NCBI GenBank assembly: GCA_948144175.1
Contig: CANXME010002049.1
Span: 434,001 to 498,000 of the forward strand
DNA: 64,000 bases
Direction of reading: 5' to 3'
Origin: Closterium sp. NIES-65
Taxonomy: Eukaryota; Streptophyta; Zygnematophyceae; Desmidiales; Closteriaceae
Both the position numbers and the translations under genes were made by a program. This document shows positions 52,273-61,711 of the stretch, one piece after another. The notes under the pieces are model-generated. The model made no database searches and was not told where the DNA came from. It saw only the letters and a list, made by a program, of their open reading frames with translations. How positions within the stretch are numbered: the stretch's first letter is position 1; each line of letters opens with the position of its first letter.

Positions 52273-55200
52273 ATGCCGTTGTTTCAGCCGTTCAGGGCGA
52301 TAGGGTACATCACAGATGACACGCCGTTCTCCGTACGGCGGGTGGGAACCGAGACGTACGTAACCGTTAGCGTCGGTCGCGCCTGGCAAATCTACAACGT
52401 ACGTATGAGACCCTACAGTGTGGTCACGATAGGTTTCGGGCTAGCAGTGGTGGTTCAGGGTTCGTGTTACGCAGGCGACCGTTCAGTACCACAGGCTAGA
52501 GCTGCATTTGAGCGATTCTTCCCCGTGCCCTTCGTTCTCTGGTCGTGTCTTATAGTCTTATCGTGTTTCTCTTCCCTTCATTCATGCACTACGTGGTCAT
52601 TTCTATGCTTCCCTTCCCCTCTTTACGGTTTACTGTTTCCCTTTCTCCCATCCGGCATTGCGTGCGAAACTGGACCTGGGCGGTTAATGGTAACCCGTTT
52701 CGTTTCCGCGTTCGTGACGCCGTTCCGAATGGAATCAGTGCGCGAAGCTTCGCCTGGTCTTCGTTGGTGAGTCTACTCTCTCCCATCTGCACCTCAAGCC
52801 GCCCCCTTACTGAGATTAAGTGTATCCTCTCAATATTCTATTCTTATTCACCTCTGAAATGTAAAAATCTATGTCTTTTCTAAGCTGGGCCTTTAGTGTC
52901 TTAAACCCGAAACCCGTGTCCTTAAGCCCCTACCAGGAACAGCTCCCTATGGCTATCCGTCCTCTCATATCTCATCAACATCGCACCTTTGCTGCGACTT
53001 GAGTCGCCTCAGAAACCCTTGAACTCCAAACCCAAAAGCTTCAACCCCACTTCCCAACCCTCTCAGGATCGGAACTCCCCAAGTCTATTCGCGCACTGAC
53101 CTCGCACCGCGACCGCACCTTTGCAGCCTTTGGCACTGACATTGCGGTCTTCTACCGCTCGCACCAGGTGGGTAACGAGTGTGGGTGCAGGTGGGTAATG
53201 GGGGTGGGTGCAGGTTGGTAACGGGGGTGTGTGTGGGTAACGGGGGTGGGTGCAGGTGGGTAACGGGGGTGTAACGCCTGTGGGGCTTACACGTAAGGGT
53301 ATGAGAGCATCCGCTGCGCCTCAAATACAACCCTCGTTTTGACCCAGTGGGTAGCGAGGTGTTACATTTGGTATCAGAGCCTGGGGTTCGATTGCCGGCT
53401 GGGTCACATTTGAATGTGCCAGTCGCGAACCCAGTGAACGATCCGCCGCTGGCCTGGCCCACCAGCGAAGTCGCTGTAGAACGAGATTCAGGTCCTTGCG
53501 AGGGCGGACTCCCTGCCCAACGAGGACGTTGGCTCCAGGGGGGGACGAGTGTAACGCCTGTGGGGCTTACACGTAAGGGTATGAGAGCATCCGCTGCGCC
53601 TCAAATACAACCCTCGTTTTGACCCAGTGGGTAGCGAGGTGTTACAGGGGGTGTGGGTGCAGATGGGTGCAGGTGGGTGTTGCTGGGTGTGGGCGTTGGT
53701 CCAAGTCTGTCCATGCGCTAACCTCTCATCGCGACTGCACCTTTGCAGCCTTGGTTGGCACTGACATTGCCGCCTTCTACTGCTCGCCCCAGGTGGAACT
53801 GGGTGTTGGTGGGTGTTGCCGCCAGTGTAGCTGTGAAACTAGAATGGGTGGGTGCGAAACACGAGTTTCATATACTACTCTAATACTCTAACGATCCGTT
53901 CTTTAGGAAAACAAGCAAACAGAGATTCTTGTATTATTGCCCCGTTTTCCCCCTATTCCCCTATCCCTTCCCCTCCCACTCGCCCTTCTCTCTGGCAGGT
54001 GAGAACTCTCAAGGGGCACAGGGCGAAGGTCAGGCTTCTTCTGTGTGTTTGGGCGAATACCTGCTTTCAGTGGACGAGGACAGGCATGTGCTCATGTGGC
54101 CTGTTAGAGGGGAGGCATAGAGATGCTCAGCTCACACGCCTTAAGCACCCTCTCCCTTGCCCCTCCTTCTTGCCGCCCATGCTGGCAGGTGGGAACGTTC
54201 AAGGGTCACAGGGCGAAGGTCAGGCTTCTTCTGGTGCTGGGCGAATGCCTGCTCTCAGTGGACGAGCAGAGGCATGTGCTCCTGTGGCCAGTCAGAGGGG
54301 CGCAAAGAGACGCTCACCCGCCTTAAGCACCCTCTCCCTTGCCCCTCCTTGCCGCTCGTGCTGACAGGTGGGGACACTGAAGGGACACAAGGCGAAGATC
54401 AAGCTGCTGCTCGTGTTTGGCGAATACTTGATTTCAGTGGACGAGAATAGGCATGTGCTTATGTGGCCGGTCAGAGGGACACAAAGAGATGCGCCCAAGG
54501 GAGAGGGAGAGGAAGGGAAGGGGAAGGAGGGGAATGAAGAAGAGGAGGGTAGAGGGGAAAGAGGGGGACCGGATGGGGATGGAGGAGTGGGGAACGAAGA
54601 GGGGAAGAAACCTGGAGGGGCTGACCAGGAGGGGTTTGTTCTGGAGCCTCTCGGGCAGTTTCAGCTGCCCGAGGGGTTCAATCCAACCGGGGTAATTCAC
54701 CCCGACACGTACCTCAACAAGCTCCTGTTCGCGTCAGAAGACGGGCGCATGCAGCTGTGGAATGTAAATTCCAGGAAGCTTCTGTACGAGTTCAAGGGGT
54801 GGGGCGTGGGGATAACAGCACTGGTGGGGTCGCCTGCATTGGATACAGCAGCAGTGGGGTGCAGCGACGGCAAGGTGCATGTGCATAACATAAGGCTGGA
54901 TAGGCCAGTCGTGGATTTCACACATGCTGCTGCTGGCGCCGTCACTTCCCTGGCATTTAACTCAGGTCAGTTGCTCTTCCCTTGCGGTATGATGTGGTTT
55001 AGTGTGGTACTGAGGTGTAGCGCAGTGCAGTGCAGTGCAGTGCGGTGCAGTGGCGAGCAGTGGGGATAACAGCACTGGTGGGGTCGCCTGCATTGGATAC
55101 AGCAGCAGTGGGGTGCAGCGACGGCAAGGTGCATGTGCATAACATAAGGCTGGATAGGCCAGTCGTGGACTTCACCCACGCTGCTGCCGGCGCTGTGACA

Positions 55201-57825
55201 TCCCTCGCCTTCAACTCAGGTCAGTCCTTTTCCACGGTGCAGTGCGGTTTTGTGCGGTGCATCAGTGGGGTGCAGCGACGGCAAGGTGCATGTGCATAAC
55301 ATAAGGCTGGATAGGCCAGTCGTGGACTTCACCCACGCTGCTGCCGGCGCTGTGACATCCCTCGCCTTCAACTCAGGTCAGTCCTTTTCCACGGTGCAGT
55401 GCGGTTTTGTGCGGTGCATCAGTGGGGTGCAGCGACGGCAAGGTGCATGTGCATAACATAAGGCTGGATAGGCCAGTCGTGGACTTCACCCACGCTGCTG
55501 CCGGCGCCGTGACATCCCTCGCCTTCAACTCAGGTCAGTCCTTTTCCACGGTGCAGTGCGGTTTTGTGCGGTGCATCAGTGGGGTGCAGCGACGGCAAGG
55601 TGCATGTGCATAACATAAGGCTGGATAGGCCAGTCGTGGACTTCACCCACGCTGCTGCCGGCGCCGTGACATCCCTCGCCTTCAACTCAGGTCAGTCCTT
55701 TTCCACGGTGCAGTGCGGTTTTGTGCGGTGCATCAGTGGGGTGCAGCGACGGCAAGGTGCATGTGCATAACATAAGGCTGGATAGGCCAGTCGTGGACTT
55801 CACCCACGCTGCTGCCGGCGCCGTGACATCCCTCGCCTTCAACTCAGGTCAGTCCTTTTCCACGGTGCAGTGCGGTTTTGTGCGGTGCATCAGTGGGGTG
55901 CAGCGACGGCAAGGTGCATGTGCATAACATAAGGCTGGATAGGCCAGTCGTGGACTTCACCCACGCTGCTGCCGGCGCCGTCACCTCCCTGGCCTTCAAC
56001 TCAGGTTAGTGGGCCTTCTCTTGCGGTCTTGTGCGGTTTAGTGCGGCACCGCGGTGCAGCGCGGTGCAGTGGTGAGCAGTGGGGATAGCAGCGCTGGTGG
56101 GGTCGCCTGCGTTGGACACGGTGGCAGTGGGGTGCAGCGACGGCAAGGTGCATGTGCATAACATAAGGCTGGATAAACCAGCCGTGGATTTCACCCACGC
56201 TGCTGCCAGCGCTGTGACTTCCCTGGCCATCAACGCAGGTCAGCCTTCGTCAATGGTGTAGTGCGCTTTAGTGCGGTTGAGTGCAGTGCTGGGTTCAGTC
56301 CAGCGATGGCAAGGTGCATGTGCATGACATCCGGCTGGATAACCCGCCGCCTGCACTCCCATCATCCCTGATGCTCATGTTGTTCTGCTGTTCTGCTCCG
56401 CCCTGCTGTATTTTGAGGCGCCTCAAAATAACCCGCCGCCTGCACTCCCATCATCCCTGATGCTCATGTTGTTCTGCTGTTCTCCCCCTGCTGCTCCCAC
56501 CCCCCTCACTCCGCAGATGGTCCGCCTCTTCTAGCGGTGGGCGGCATGGGAGGAGCTATCAGCGTGTGGGACCTCACCAACCGCCGTCTGCACTCTATCA
56601 TTCCCGACGCTCATGATGGCCGTGTAGCGGCGCTTTCTTTTCTCGTGAATGAGCCGCTTCTGCTGTCCGCTGGCGCTGATAACAGCCTCAAGGTATGGCC
56701 TCTCCTTCTCCTCGCCCAAACAACCACTGCCTGCACTCCATCATCCCGGATGCCCACACCACAATGGCCGCGTGGCTGCCCTCTCTTTCCTCGTCAACGA
56801 GCCTTTTCTGCTCTCTGCTGGGGCAGACAACAGCCTCAAGGTACTGCTGGTGCCTCTGTAGCCCCTCTCTGTAGCCCCTCTCTGTAGCCCCTCTCTGTAG
56901 CCCCTCTCTGTAGCCCCTCTCTGTAGCCCCTCTCTGTAGCCCCTCTCTGTAGCCCCTCTCTGTAGCCCCTCTCTGTAGCCCCTCTCTGTTGATCCTCGCC
57001 TCCCGTTCTTCCCCATCCCATCTACCGCCGCCTGCACTGCACGCCATCAACTTTTGAGACGTCTCAAAAGTCGTCTCATGAGACGTCTCAAAATTTCTTC
57101 CCCATCCCATCTACCGCCGCCTGCACTGCACGCCATCATCCCCGACGCGCATGACGGCCGCGTGGCAGCCCTCTCCTTCTTCGTCAATGAGCCTCTGCTC
57201 TTGTGTGCCGGTGCCGATAACAGCCTCAAGCTACATGCTGTGGTCCTCCTGTGCCCCACTTGGCTGTAGTCTCTGTAGCCCCCCCTCTCCATTCACCTAA
57301 CAAAGCGTCATCTGCACTCCATCATTCCCGACACCCATGACGGGCGTGTGGCTGCCCTCTCCTTCCTCGTCAACGAGCCTCTTCTGCTCTCTGCTGGTTT
57401 TGAGTCGACTCAAAAACAAGCGAGCCTCTTCTGCTCTCTGCTGGGGCAGACAACAGCCTCAAGGTGCGACTGTTGGAAGACCCACTGCAGTGTCTCTGTC
57501 TGTAGCCTCTTCTTCTCCCCCGTCCCACCCACCGCCGCCTGCACTCCATTATCCCCGATTCGCATGATGGCCGCGTGGCTGCCCTCTCCTTCCTTGTCAA
57601 TGAGCCTTTGCTCTTGTCTGCAGGGGCAAACAACAGCCTCAAGGTAATGCTAACGCTTCCGTAACCCCTTCTCTTCTTCAATCGTCGTCTGTGACCTCAC
57701 CAATCGCCGTCTGTGACCTCACCAATCGTCGTCTGCACTCCACCATCCCCGGCGCTCACGACGGTCTGCCCCTGCTAATATATGGTCTCCATCATCCCCG
57801 TCAAAATATGCTCTCCCTGTTAATC

Positions 57826-57900
<75 letters not shown>

Positions 57901-60900
57901 CATCACCTCCCCTCCCCTTCTCACCTTCTCCCCCTCTCCCCATTGTGTTCCCCACTCCCCCATCAACCCCCCGTTCCCCTCTCACCTTCTCCCCCTCTCC
58001 CACCCGTTGTGTCCCCTACTCCCTTTTCCAACACGCCTTCCCGACCGCTACCCGCCCCGCTTCTTCTCCCATATCAGATCTGGATATTTGATTCGGTGGA
58101 CGACAACCCTCGTCTCTTGCGCTACCGCACAGGACACAGCTCGCCGCCCTGCTGCATCAAGTAAGTTAAGCAAGCCGCCCTGCTGCATCAAGTAAGTTAA
58201 GCAAGCCGCCCTGCTGCATCAAGTAAGTTAAGCAAGCCGCCCTGCTGCATCAAGTAAGTACAAAGCAAACCTCTCTGCTTCATCAAGGGGTACAAAGCAA
58301 ACCGCCCTGCTGCTATCGTTTCTGAAAATTCTGGCACCCCATCTCACCCCATCTCACCACATCTCACCACATCTCACCACATCTCACCACATCTCACCAC
58401 ATCTCACCCCATCTCACCACATCTCACCACATCTCACCACATCTCACCCCATCTCACCCCATCTCACCCCATCTCACCCCATCACATCCCACCATCAGGT
58501 ACTACAGGAACGGACGCCACATTCTCATCACGTTCCTCCCATCACACCCTATCACACTCCATCCCACACCACCATCACATCTCACCCGATCTCACCCGAT
58601 CTTACCGCATCGCACCGCATCCCACCCAACGCCAGGTACTACAGGAACGGCCGTCACATTCTCTCGGCTGGGCTCGACAGAAGCTTCCGCATCTTCTCCA
58701 CCGTTCAGGTATGCTTTCAGTACCGTTCTATACCATCCTCCACCGTTCAGAAATGCTTCGAAGTGTTCAAGAATGTTGTCAGGAGTTTCTCTCACATACA
58801 AGATTTGAGGCGCCGGGAAATTCGACGCACGGGCAAATGTTGCTCTGTCAGTACTTGTTCCGATTGTGTGAGTTTGTGTGTGAGAGTGCGTGCCTCTCTG
58901 TGTGTGCGCATGTGTATGTCATTCCAAATGCTCCTCTTAATGTTTTGTTTTCTTGGGTTGTATTTGTACAGGGATACGGAATGCTCTTCTTCATGTTTTT
59001 TTTTTTTTTGCCACCCGCGTTGGACTCATAATTGGAAAGCTCACACTCGTACGCTCCTCCCTCCTTTTCTGTTCCTTCCCCCTACCAGGACCAGCAAAGC
59101 CGGGAGTTATCGCAGGGAAACTTTGAGAAGAGAATGAAGAAAATGATGATGAAGGTGAGGGAAGGGGGTGGGAGGAAAGAACCGAGTGGTGATACACCTT
59201 CGCAGGTAATTGAGGGGGCGTCATGGTGTAGTGAGGTGCATTTTGAGGCGCCTCAAAATGCACCTCACTACAGGTGAGGGAAGGGGGTGGGAGGAAAGAA
59301 CCGAGTGGTGATACACCTTTGCAGGTAAATGAGGGGGCGTCATGGACCAACTTTTGAGGCGCCTCAAAAGTATAGACCAAGGCATGGGTTTATTGCAGGG
59401 AAACTCAGAAAAGAGGATGAATAGGATGATGATGAAGGTGAAGGGGATGAGAGAGGGGCGAGACCCACCCTGGTATGCATGGATGGGGAGAGCAAGGATT
59501 TGTCGCAGGGAAAATTAGAACGGATGAAAAGTCGTGTTTTGATTCGACTTGAAACACGACTCATTACACGCGGAGCAAGGAGTTATCACAGGGAAAATTA
59601 GAAAGGATGAAGAGGATGATGCGTGGGGGGAGGGGAGAGGGGGGGAAGAACAGGAGTGTGGACATACGTTGGCATGCATGGCAAGTTTCCGTCATCCTTG
59701 CACGTTGGTGCCAGTAAACCAATGGTGCAAGCACTCCTATAAGTTCATCGTTCCTCCTTCTGAGTTAACTCAAAAGTCACCTCGTTTTGAGTGGTCACAA
59801 TAGTTGCGAGCGTTGATATAAGTTCCCCATCCCTTCTTCCTGTGCCTCCCACCCTGCCCCTTCTTTGCTTGTCTCTTCGCTAATTCAAAAACTTCCACTG
59901 TCCTTCAACTTTCCCTTTCCCCTGCCCCCTCTCTCTCCCCTCGTTGCCACCTCTCTTTTTTTCAATCTCAGGAGGAGAAGCTAAAGCTCTCCAAGGTGGT
60001 CTGCATTGACGCTGGTAAGCATTTGTGTGGGAGGTGAGGATTTAGATGTCTGAGAGGAGTTTTGAGACGTCTCGAAATTTGAGACGTCTCCAAGGTGGTC
60101 CGCTCCGCAGTGCATAAATGGTGGTAAGCATTTGTGTGGGAGCTGAGGAACTTTGGAATGTCGTCACACATGGCTACTTCCCTCTAACCTTGTTACTACT
60201 TCTTACCGTCCTGTACTCCCTCTTCACCGCTTGTCATCCCTCTCTACCGCACTGTACCCACATCTCAGCTGAGGTGCGGGAGAGTGACTGGGCGAATGTG
60301 GTGACCTGTCACGAGGGCAACCCACCTAGCAGCATTCGTGTGGGAGCTGAGGAACTTTGGACCGTCGTCACACAAGGCTGGCTACTACCTCTCACCTTGT
60401 TGACCACTTCTGACCATTCTGTACTCCCTCTTCGCCCCTCTGTACCCCTCTGTACTTCATTATACCTTTATGTTCAGCTGAGGTGCGGGAGAGGGACTGG
60501 GCGAACGTGGTGACCTGCCACGAGGGTAACCCAGCAGCATTCGTTTGGGAGCTGAGGAATTTTGTGATCGGCAAGCTGAGGCTGGTTCCGCCAGGAATTG
60601 AACCCTCGCCTGCCACTGTAAGCAGGAGTAAGATTACAATTAGACATGGTCCTTCATGCCCTCTAGGAGTGAGATTAAGATTGATGCCCTCTACGATTGA
60701 AAGCCACCTTCTTTGCTTTTTAGATAAATCAGCTCCTCCCCTCCCTCCCCCCTCCCCTACCCTACCCTCCCCTCCCCTCCCCTCCCTACCCCTCCCCCCC
60801 CCCCTACTCCCCTTTTCCCCCTTCCCATTCCCTCCCCTCCCCTTCCCTTCCCTCCCCTTCCCTCCCCTCCTTTTCCCTCCCTTCTCAATAATGGGCATGC

Positions 60901-61409: not shown

Positions 61410-61711
61410 CGTCCAGAAGATGCAGTAGAGTCCGGCACATGGTGGCATGGTGACTGGCGCTGCTGTCGATGCGCTCAACGGCCACAGCATCAACGGCCAC
61501 AGCATCAGCTGCGGCAGAGATGGGCATGTCAAGGTGAGAGCAGAGACGGTCGGTTCAAGGGGAGTGAGAGCACTGGCAGGCAGCACCGCGTGGCGTACCA
61601 GTCAGAGAAGATGCAGTACAGCCCGATGCACGGTGGCATGGTGCACGGTGGCATGGTGCACGGTGGCATGGTGCACGGTGGCATGGTGACTGGCGCTGCT
61701 AATGACGCTCT
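61410..61711 (+). pseudogene. Two downstream copies of UTP21 exon 10
   Basis: 61410-61534 ends in AAG/GTGAGA like exon 10 and carries two units of the 15-bp motif. The copy from 61582 has four 15-bp MVHGG-type units (61632-61691) and then leads into the large satellite. The true exon 10 has one related unit (NRHSI). Confidence 0.9.

Follow-up and report, generated by a model that had tools for sequence, protein, structure and literature searches.

The closest described systems, as set out in the excerpted parts of the sources cited here, come from mobile elements and from break repair. Introner elements of Amoebophrya carry inverted repeats of 8–20 nt and direct repeats of 3–5 nt (PMC7789003). 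According to the twin-priming proposal for L1, the two strands of the target prime on a single RNA, and the resulting inverted halves are flanked by target duplications; L1 duplications have a median of 13 bp where only lengths of 5–25 bp are counted (PMC12016303). In mammalian evolution telomerase is reported to have added sequence at internal double-strand breaks (the interstitial telomeric sequences TERC-ITS), with duplication of the target at 6 of 130 loci in rodents and 4 of 25 in primates (PMC2246262). Small tandem duplications are a known product of breaks with complementary 3′ overhangs (PMC8355091). For the palindromes of green-algal organelles, error-prone repair of breaks is the proposed means of origin and spread; those of Chlorosarcinopsis have an AT-rich stem of 8–13 nt and a 3-nt loop, and are gained and lost mostly inside other palindromes (PMC7043297). 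Here we compare these systems with a family of very short palindromes, with the core TTTTGAG-N4-CTCAAAA, in a 64,000-nucleotide stretch of the alga Closterium sp. NIES-65 (hereafter the window; C1751:434001-498000 within a genome of 874,075,685 bases in 2,400 contigs). Eight such palindromes lie in or near a WDR36/UTP21 gene in the window, most of them between two copies of the local DNA.

The layout had been noticed by a first-pass annotation of the window and belongs to a real, genome-wide family, with 30,327 exact copies of the core in the 874 Mb genome compared to 4 for the reversed control pattern. The centre TCGA accounts for 13,080 copies (control 0) and centres of the form NCGN for 24,964 of the 30,327 (control 0). 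Copies with arms spaced 5–34 nt apart are far fewer (3,103 genome-wide, control 172, with many of the listed examples being two adjacent cores), so the 4-nt centre belongs to the design. We also collected a sample of 264 kb, made up of the window and 20 stretches of 10 kb picked for hits on contigs C6, C9 and C10; 52 of its 56 cores have a self-complementary centre (TCGA 23, ACGT 14, GCGC 13 and AATT 2). The family lies in the alga's nuclear genome and not in organelle DNA, as seen from the 874 Mb of the genome, the 2.0 Mb contig, the UTP21 gene with introns and the Copia-type open reading frames (ORFs). The exact 24-nt form GACTTTTGAGTCGACTCAAAAGTC has no occurrence in the viral contig collection or in the genome contig collection.

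Within the window the exact core occurs five times (starts at 56411, 57052, 57398, 59241 and 59352) and cores with 1–2 mismatches four times (57076, 59758, 59785 and 60060), so that nine matches with up to two mismatches stand against 0.22 expected from shuffles. All nine lie within the WDR36/UTP21 gene or just before it. Perfect palindromes of at least 18 nt number five between 56.0 and 60.6 kb, where order-2 Markov simulations give 0.005 (56409–56430, 57050–57071, 57398–57415, 59227–59272 and 59350–59371), and one in the remainder of the window; degenerate palindromes are found at 57076, 59537, 59758, 59785 and 60060. The coordinates first proposed for the palindromes were correct within 1–2 nt, and their centres do vary while staying self-complementary (GGCGCC, GACGTC, GTCGAC and GTTAAC), as had been claimed. 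The palindromes, listed without strand, are:

56409–56430: perfect palindrome of 22 nt, centre GGCGCC.
57050–57093: palindrome ACTTTTGAGACGTCTCAAAAGT, followed by a second, degenerate core (57076–57093).
57398–57415: 18-nt core, centre GTCGAC, followed by ACAAG.
59227–59272: perfect palindrome of 46 nt, centre GGCGCC.
59350–59371: 22-nt palindrome with no flanking repeat above background.
59531–59562: degenerate palindrome, its centre mutated and its outer arms intact.
59757–59802: two degenerate cores linked by GTCACCTCG, the standard outer arm; no flanking repeat above background.
60060–60090: degenerate double palindrome, centres GACGTC.

Rfam models run over 56000–60600 gave seven matches up to E = 5, every one below its gathering score; three of the seven are microRNA models placed on the 46-nt hairpin.

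The first-pass annotation had placed these palindromes between direct repeats at six or more sites. The layout is present at six of the eight sites it named, the exceptions being 59352 and 59757. The flanking repeats, all on the forward strand, are:

56340–56408 (left) and 56429–56493 (right): duplication of about 65–69 bp at the 56409 insert; 65 identities, no mismatches, 4 gaps, score 60.
57006–57049 and 57095–57138: 44-bp target duplication, 44/44 identical, score 44.
57374–57397 and 57421–57444: exact 24-bp target duplication, exon-like, beside the 57398 palindrome.
59154–59226 and 59273–59345: 73-bp target duplication, 71/73 identical, score 69.
59490–59528 and 59573–59611: 39-bp duplication at 59531, 35/39 identical, score 31.
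59992–60050 and 60091–60162: diverged duplication at 60060; 53 identities, 6 mismatches, 13 gaps, score 36.

The window is repeat-rich overall, and these scores were set beside a background of repeat scores at 1,000 random places in its first 54 kb, where abutment to an insert was not required (median 11, 90th percentile 21.5, 95th 31.5 and 99th 56.5). The repeats at 56411 and 59241 exceed the 99th percentile. Taken alone, those at 57052 and 60060 lie between the 95th and 99th percentiles and those at 57398 and 59531 between the 90th and 95th, while the scores at 59352 (11.5) and 59757 (12) are at background. The alignment at 57398 runs over 57371–57397 and 57417–57444 (27 identities, 1 gap, score 25); the case for a duplication there is made by the exact 24-bp repeat adjoining the palindrome and by the existence of an exon copy without the insert. 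That copy and the gene part it belongs to are as follows:

56516–60572, forward strand: part of the host gene, with WDR36/UTP21 exons and duplicated exon copies (exon boundaries by eye).
56746–56860, forward strand: tandem exon copy without an insert, compared with the 57398 insertion.

The gene was assigned from a peptide assembled from its exons by eye, which matches Pfam PF25168 (1e-29) and chain LT of PDB 7mq8 (2.1e-41). Aligning 56746–56860 with the tandem exon copy that holds the insert (57341–57475) leaves a single internal gap of 47 bp, made up of the 18-bp core, the 5 bp of ACAAG and the 24-bp duplication. Palindrome and duplication are therefore absent together from 56746–56860, and this one exon-copy comparison supports the reading that the two would have arisen in one event. 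A second exon copy (57536–57660) is also free of the insert, with its alignment split into several gaps. Two other candidate empty sites were set aside: in the paralogues L019 and L024 the exons align and the intron is too diverged to serve, and a pair on C287 guessed from spacing (2 kb each) has only the palindrome units in common.

In the 264 kb sample, scoring the flanks of the genome motif against controls, a check proposed with the original observation, showed flanking repeats clearly more often than at control positions. A local repeat score of at least 15 was reached by 27 of 29 isolated copies, compared to 28% of random and 38% of local control positions, so within these 264 kb (the genome holds 30,327 copies) the motif is not one that occurs without flanking duplications. 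Both gaps between repeat and palindrome are 20 bp or less in 17 of the 29, against 16% of controls. A strict test accepted only ungapped repeats of 16 bp or more with 90% identity or better, lying no further than 12 bp away on either side. By this test a duplication is present at 19 of 34 isolated copies, compared to 5.5% of random and 12.3% of local controls, and the duplications are 16–71 bp long with a median of 30 bp; the strict test misses repeats that bear indels (L019, L032 and L033) and inserts with several cores (57052). These data establish the family and its excess of flanking duplications. Identity between duplicated copies goes from 100% down to below 80%, with the lowest values resting on doubtful alignments. 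Going by these divergences, insertion has been long-running and includes recent events, unless gene conversion keeps the copies alike.

The inserts are built around their centres. The TCGA type has the layout (GAGGTGAC)TTTTGAGTC/GACTCAAAA(GTCACCTC), with the outer part ending at various points, and its sequence GACUCAAAAGUCACCUC has counterparts of the ACGT and GCGC types. Among 18 TCGA cases the arms match the consensus for 0–7 nt on the left and 0–9 nt on the right, with a left–right difference of at least 2 nt in 7. The centre is constant and the ends variable, the reverse of a terminal-repeat transposon. Core-containing hairpins have a loop of 0 in 52 of 59 cases. Joints of the half unit GAGGTGACTTTTGAGTC (17 nt, up to 2 mismatches) are head-to-head in 1,368 cases and head-to-tail in 90, and there is no tail-to-tail joint; half-unit sites genome-wide number 648 for GTGACTTTTGAGTCH and 273 for HTCGACTCAAAAGTCAC. 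Direct 27-bp multimers have 137 joints genome-wide, and one insert (L036), flanked by just one pair of duplications of about 39 bp, is a run of direct 27-bp units with a lone inverted arm at its end. In the sample, 43 of 198 TTTTGAG/CTCAAAA sites fall outside core-like 18-mers (up to 2 mismatches), compared to 35 expected in all (26–51 across 15 simulations), giving no clear excess of lone arms.

Compared with the systems above, these inserts share traits with each. Like miniature inverted-repeat transposable elements (MITEs) and introners, they are non-coding, have inverted repeats and are found with target duplications; in those elements, however, the inverted repeats are near the ends, there is internal sequence and the duplications are short. 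Conserved terminal inverted repeats, as in a DNA transposon or MITE, are not seen here, as the ends vary between copies and between sides, and the 19 strict cases show no fixed short duplication length. A variable duplication is common to target-primed reverse transcription, whose constant end beside the target was not found here. L1 in particular has a poly(A) end and 5′ truncation, whereas here the duplications are longer, the target-adjacent part is variable and the centre is fixed. TERC-ITS resemble the inserts as short templated sequences at internal breaks, sometimes with RNA pieces in opposite orientation (PMC2246262), but their template is the telomeric repeat and few of their loci are duplicated, whereas here duplications are frequent. 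The organelle palindromes of Chlorosarcinopsis, Volvox and Haematococcus are likewise short, highly repeated hairpins; they are organellar and looped, and the excerpted text mentions no long duplication, whereas the Closterium palindromes are nuclear, loop-free and set in duplicated target. Repair of breaks with complementary 3′ overhangs has the small duplications in common, with a constant palindromic insert not mentioned in the excerpt (PMC8355091). In the open-licence PMC literature, as far as a limited search went (which is not proof of absence), we found no described class that fits the palindromic inserts.

The explanation we favour, while rating it slightly short of an even chance, is that the palindromes are tiny head-to-head insertions (18 to about 50 bp) and that a single event made each of them together with a target duplication of tens of bp, by extension of paired 3′ ends and their joining. 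The target would be cut on both strands tens of bp apart, leaving complementary 3′ overhangs (a presumed polarity). Each 3′ end would then be extended with the identical short sequence ...GAGGTGNNTTTTGAGNN, presumably copied from a common template, and the extended ends would anneal at their self-complementary terminus (TCGA, ACGT, GCGC or AATT). Filling in and sealing of the annealed ends would give target copy, palindrome and target copy in turn. The enzyme could be a reverse transcriptase with an RNA template, or a DNA-copying end-joining synthesis. Symmetric 3′ extension with joining at the tips would account in a single step for duplications that are long and variable, for palindromes without a spacer and for centres that vary but are nearly always self-complementary. 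It would also account for the combination of a fixed centre and free ends, for the orientation counts and for the multimers. The layout of the L036 insert fits as well, since one end could have been extended repeatedly before the join.

Of the three origins that the first-pass annotation had suggested, an uncharacterised palindromic mini-element is supported in the form of an insertional family with long, variable duplications, and a library artefact is very unlikely. The remaining one, hairpin-templated repair of widely staggered breaks, fits as regards the breaks. A single strand folding back fits less well, because the palindromes have no spacer and a loop-free fold-back of DNA is not expected; annealing of two identical ends appears the better fit.

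Several points weigh against paired extension and joining. Neither a template nor an enzyme was found, in a search for an RNA gene or enzyme that was limited to half-unit patterns, and no target or endonuclease motif was seen by eye at the duplication ends of 18 sites. Classical target-primed reverse transcription conserves the part adjoining the target; here that part is variable, so target-primed priming would need to be internal and to run to a fixed template end. Arm lengths are equal in 7 of 18 TCGA cases compared to 2.1 under shuffled pairing, and arms that depart from the consensus are also mirrored (L031 at 4727; L034 at 5603, with 17 nt per side), so if both arms are copied from one template, an identical variant has to be used on the two sides. 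Arrays inflate both the head-to-head and the head-to-tail counts. By the strict test 15 of the 34 isolated copies sampled have no clean repeat, and in the window two of the eight palindromes have none above background; the sample was picked for hits and covers three contigs and the window. Tandem repeats are frequent in this genome, with 12–58% of local control positions passing depending on the test. A looser score passes 31 of the 34 copies but also 58% of local controls, a modest separation, and for that reason we did not rely on it and preferred the strict test. Lastly, the insert-free exon copy is a paralogue rather than an orthologue, so that exact loss could formally account for it.

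The strongest rival, unlikely in our view yet a serious candidate, is a pre-formed palindromic element of the foldback or MITE type, a hairpin that moves in one piece by excision or copying. Its insertion, with widely staggered target cuts, would be the work of a transposase or recombinase encoded elsewhere. Three traits are MITE-like: the inverted symmetry, the target duplications and the lack of room for a gene. The long symmetrical arms of some copies (46 nt in the window, 52 nt in L034) and the excess of equal arm lengths also count in its favour. However, transposases recognise the ends of their elements, and it is the ends that vary here and the centre that is constant. DNA transposons also make a short duplication of set length, whereas those of the strict test span 16–71 bp, and the sample has no clear excess of lone arms.

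Rather less probable is that the duplications are ordinary repair of nearby opposite nicks, with the palindrome as captured filler or as an older fragile site that caused the break. Repair of staggered breaks does give small tandem duplications (PMC8355091), and by the looser tests tandem duplications are present at 28–58% of control positions. The sample has 63 interrupted direct repeats; the spacers of 40 hold no palindrome, and in 23 this particular palindrome lies in or at the spacer, a share inflated because the stretches were picked for hits. Still, random filler would not favour a single sequence. A fragile site that predated the break would be expected in the unduplicated copy, and it is absent from exon copy 56746–56860.

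We give a small chance to a narrower version of paired 3′ extension, in which staggered breaks are healed by a telomerase-like reverse transcriptase, or by some other enzyme whose RNA template is short and bounded. Both 3′ ends would receive a non-telomeric sequence, and the template would end in a self-complementary tetranucleotide that leads to the head-to-head join. The 17-nt direct repeats, able to re-enter via CGA (the 90 head-to-tail joints), and the 27-bp multimers would fit re-alignment on such a template, and would also fit slippage.

There is only a slight chance that the copies multiplied as a short satellite or as a protein-binding motif, through expanding arrays and gene conversion and not by insertion. 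Arrays with many unit lengths do exist (27, 37, 42, 53, 63 and 71 bp among them), but the printed array units carry the local flank while isolated sampled copies sit in differing flanks, which suggests that the arrays of target plus core grew by local amplification after insertion. An assembly or library artefact, a suspicion raised because some centres are common restriction sites and so recall linkers, can be given almost no weight against 30,327 copies with several centres and locus-specific arms, substitutions in the duplicated copies and cores, and diverging array units.

If paired extension and joining is right, this would be a nuclear insertion process for which we found no described equivalent, responsible for some 30,000 palindromes recognised by their centre, many with duplicated target. 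In the telomerase-like version, the mobile sequence would be defined by its join and not by its ends, and target DNA, exon and splice-site DNA included, would have been duplicated many thousand times. The duplicated stretches of the window include exon-like sequence and an apparent 5′ splice site (the left 73-bp copy, 59154–59226, starts at what looks by eye like an exon end, AAG/GTGAGG), so decoy exons and longer introns could result from it. The inserts would give tandem arrays a visible starting point, and the proposal that two break ends are extended from one template and joined via a self-complementary tip becomes testable. Such a process would also bear on Closterium, a group whose genome size varies more than two-fold (PMC10407611).

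Some further observations concern the arrays and half units. An array of 26 joints with the 27-bp unit TTTTGAGTCGACTCAAAACGAGGTGAC is present at G000:C43:1010337-1011038, with similar arrays on C222, C741, C947, C1675 and C1796. A 19-bp unit array with GTGACTTTTGAGTC is found at G000:C531:237079-237511, with more than 20 copies listed, and the base after its half unit differs from the G of the palindromic joint. On G000:C69 and G000:C128 (around 1.79–1.82 Mb) four half-unit sites have near-equal spacing and strands, suggesting a segmental duplication. A 44-nt hairpin with 21-bp arms at L028:5472-5515 is unrelated to the core.

Elsewhere in the window, positions 1–56000 hold several Copia-type ORFs and no core at up to 2 mismatches. 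With the cores near the gene and none in this 56 kb, there may be a preference for inserting into genes or open chromatin; alternatively the transposon DNA may be younger. Over 55102–56010 a 157-bp unit, in which exon and splice-site-like stretches were recognised by eye, is repeated 5.8 times at 99% identity; it is adjoined by five diverged exon copies (56575, 56723, 57113, 57299 and 57526); judged by eye, these appear to be tandem decoy exons. The UTP21 gene also contains a CT dinucleotide run (57836–57898), a 10-bp minisatellite (58335–58483) and a 13-bp minisatellite (56854–56989). On the reverse strand, a 758-aa ORF at 61529–63805 matches the Pfam model Extensin_1, in a stretch with an AT skew of 0.67.

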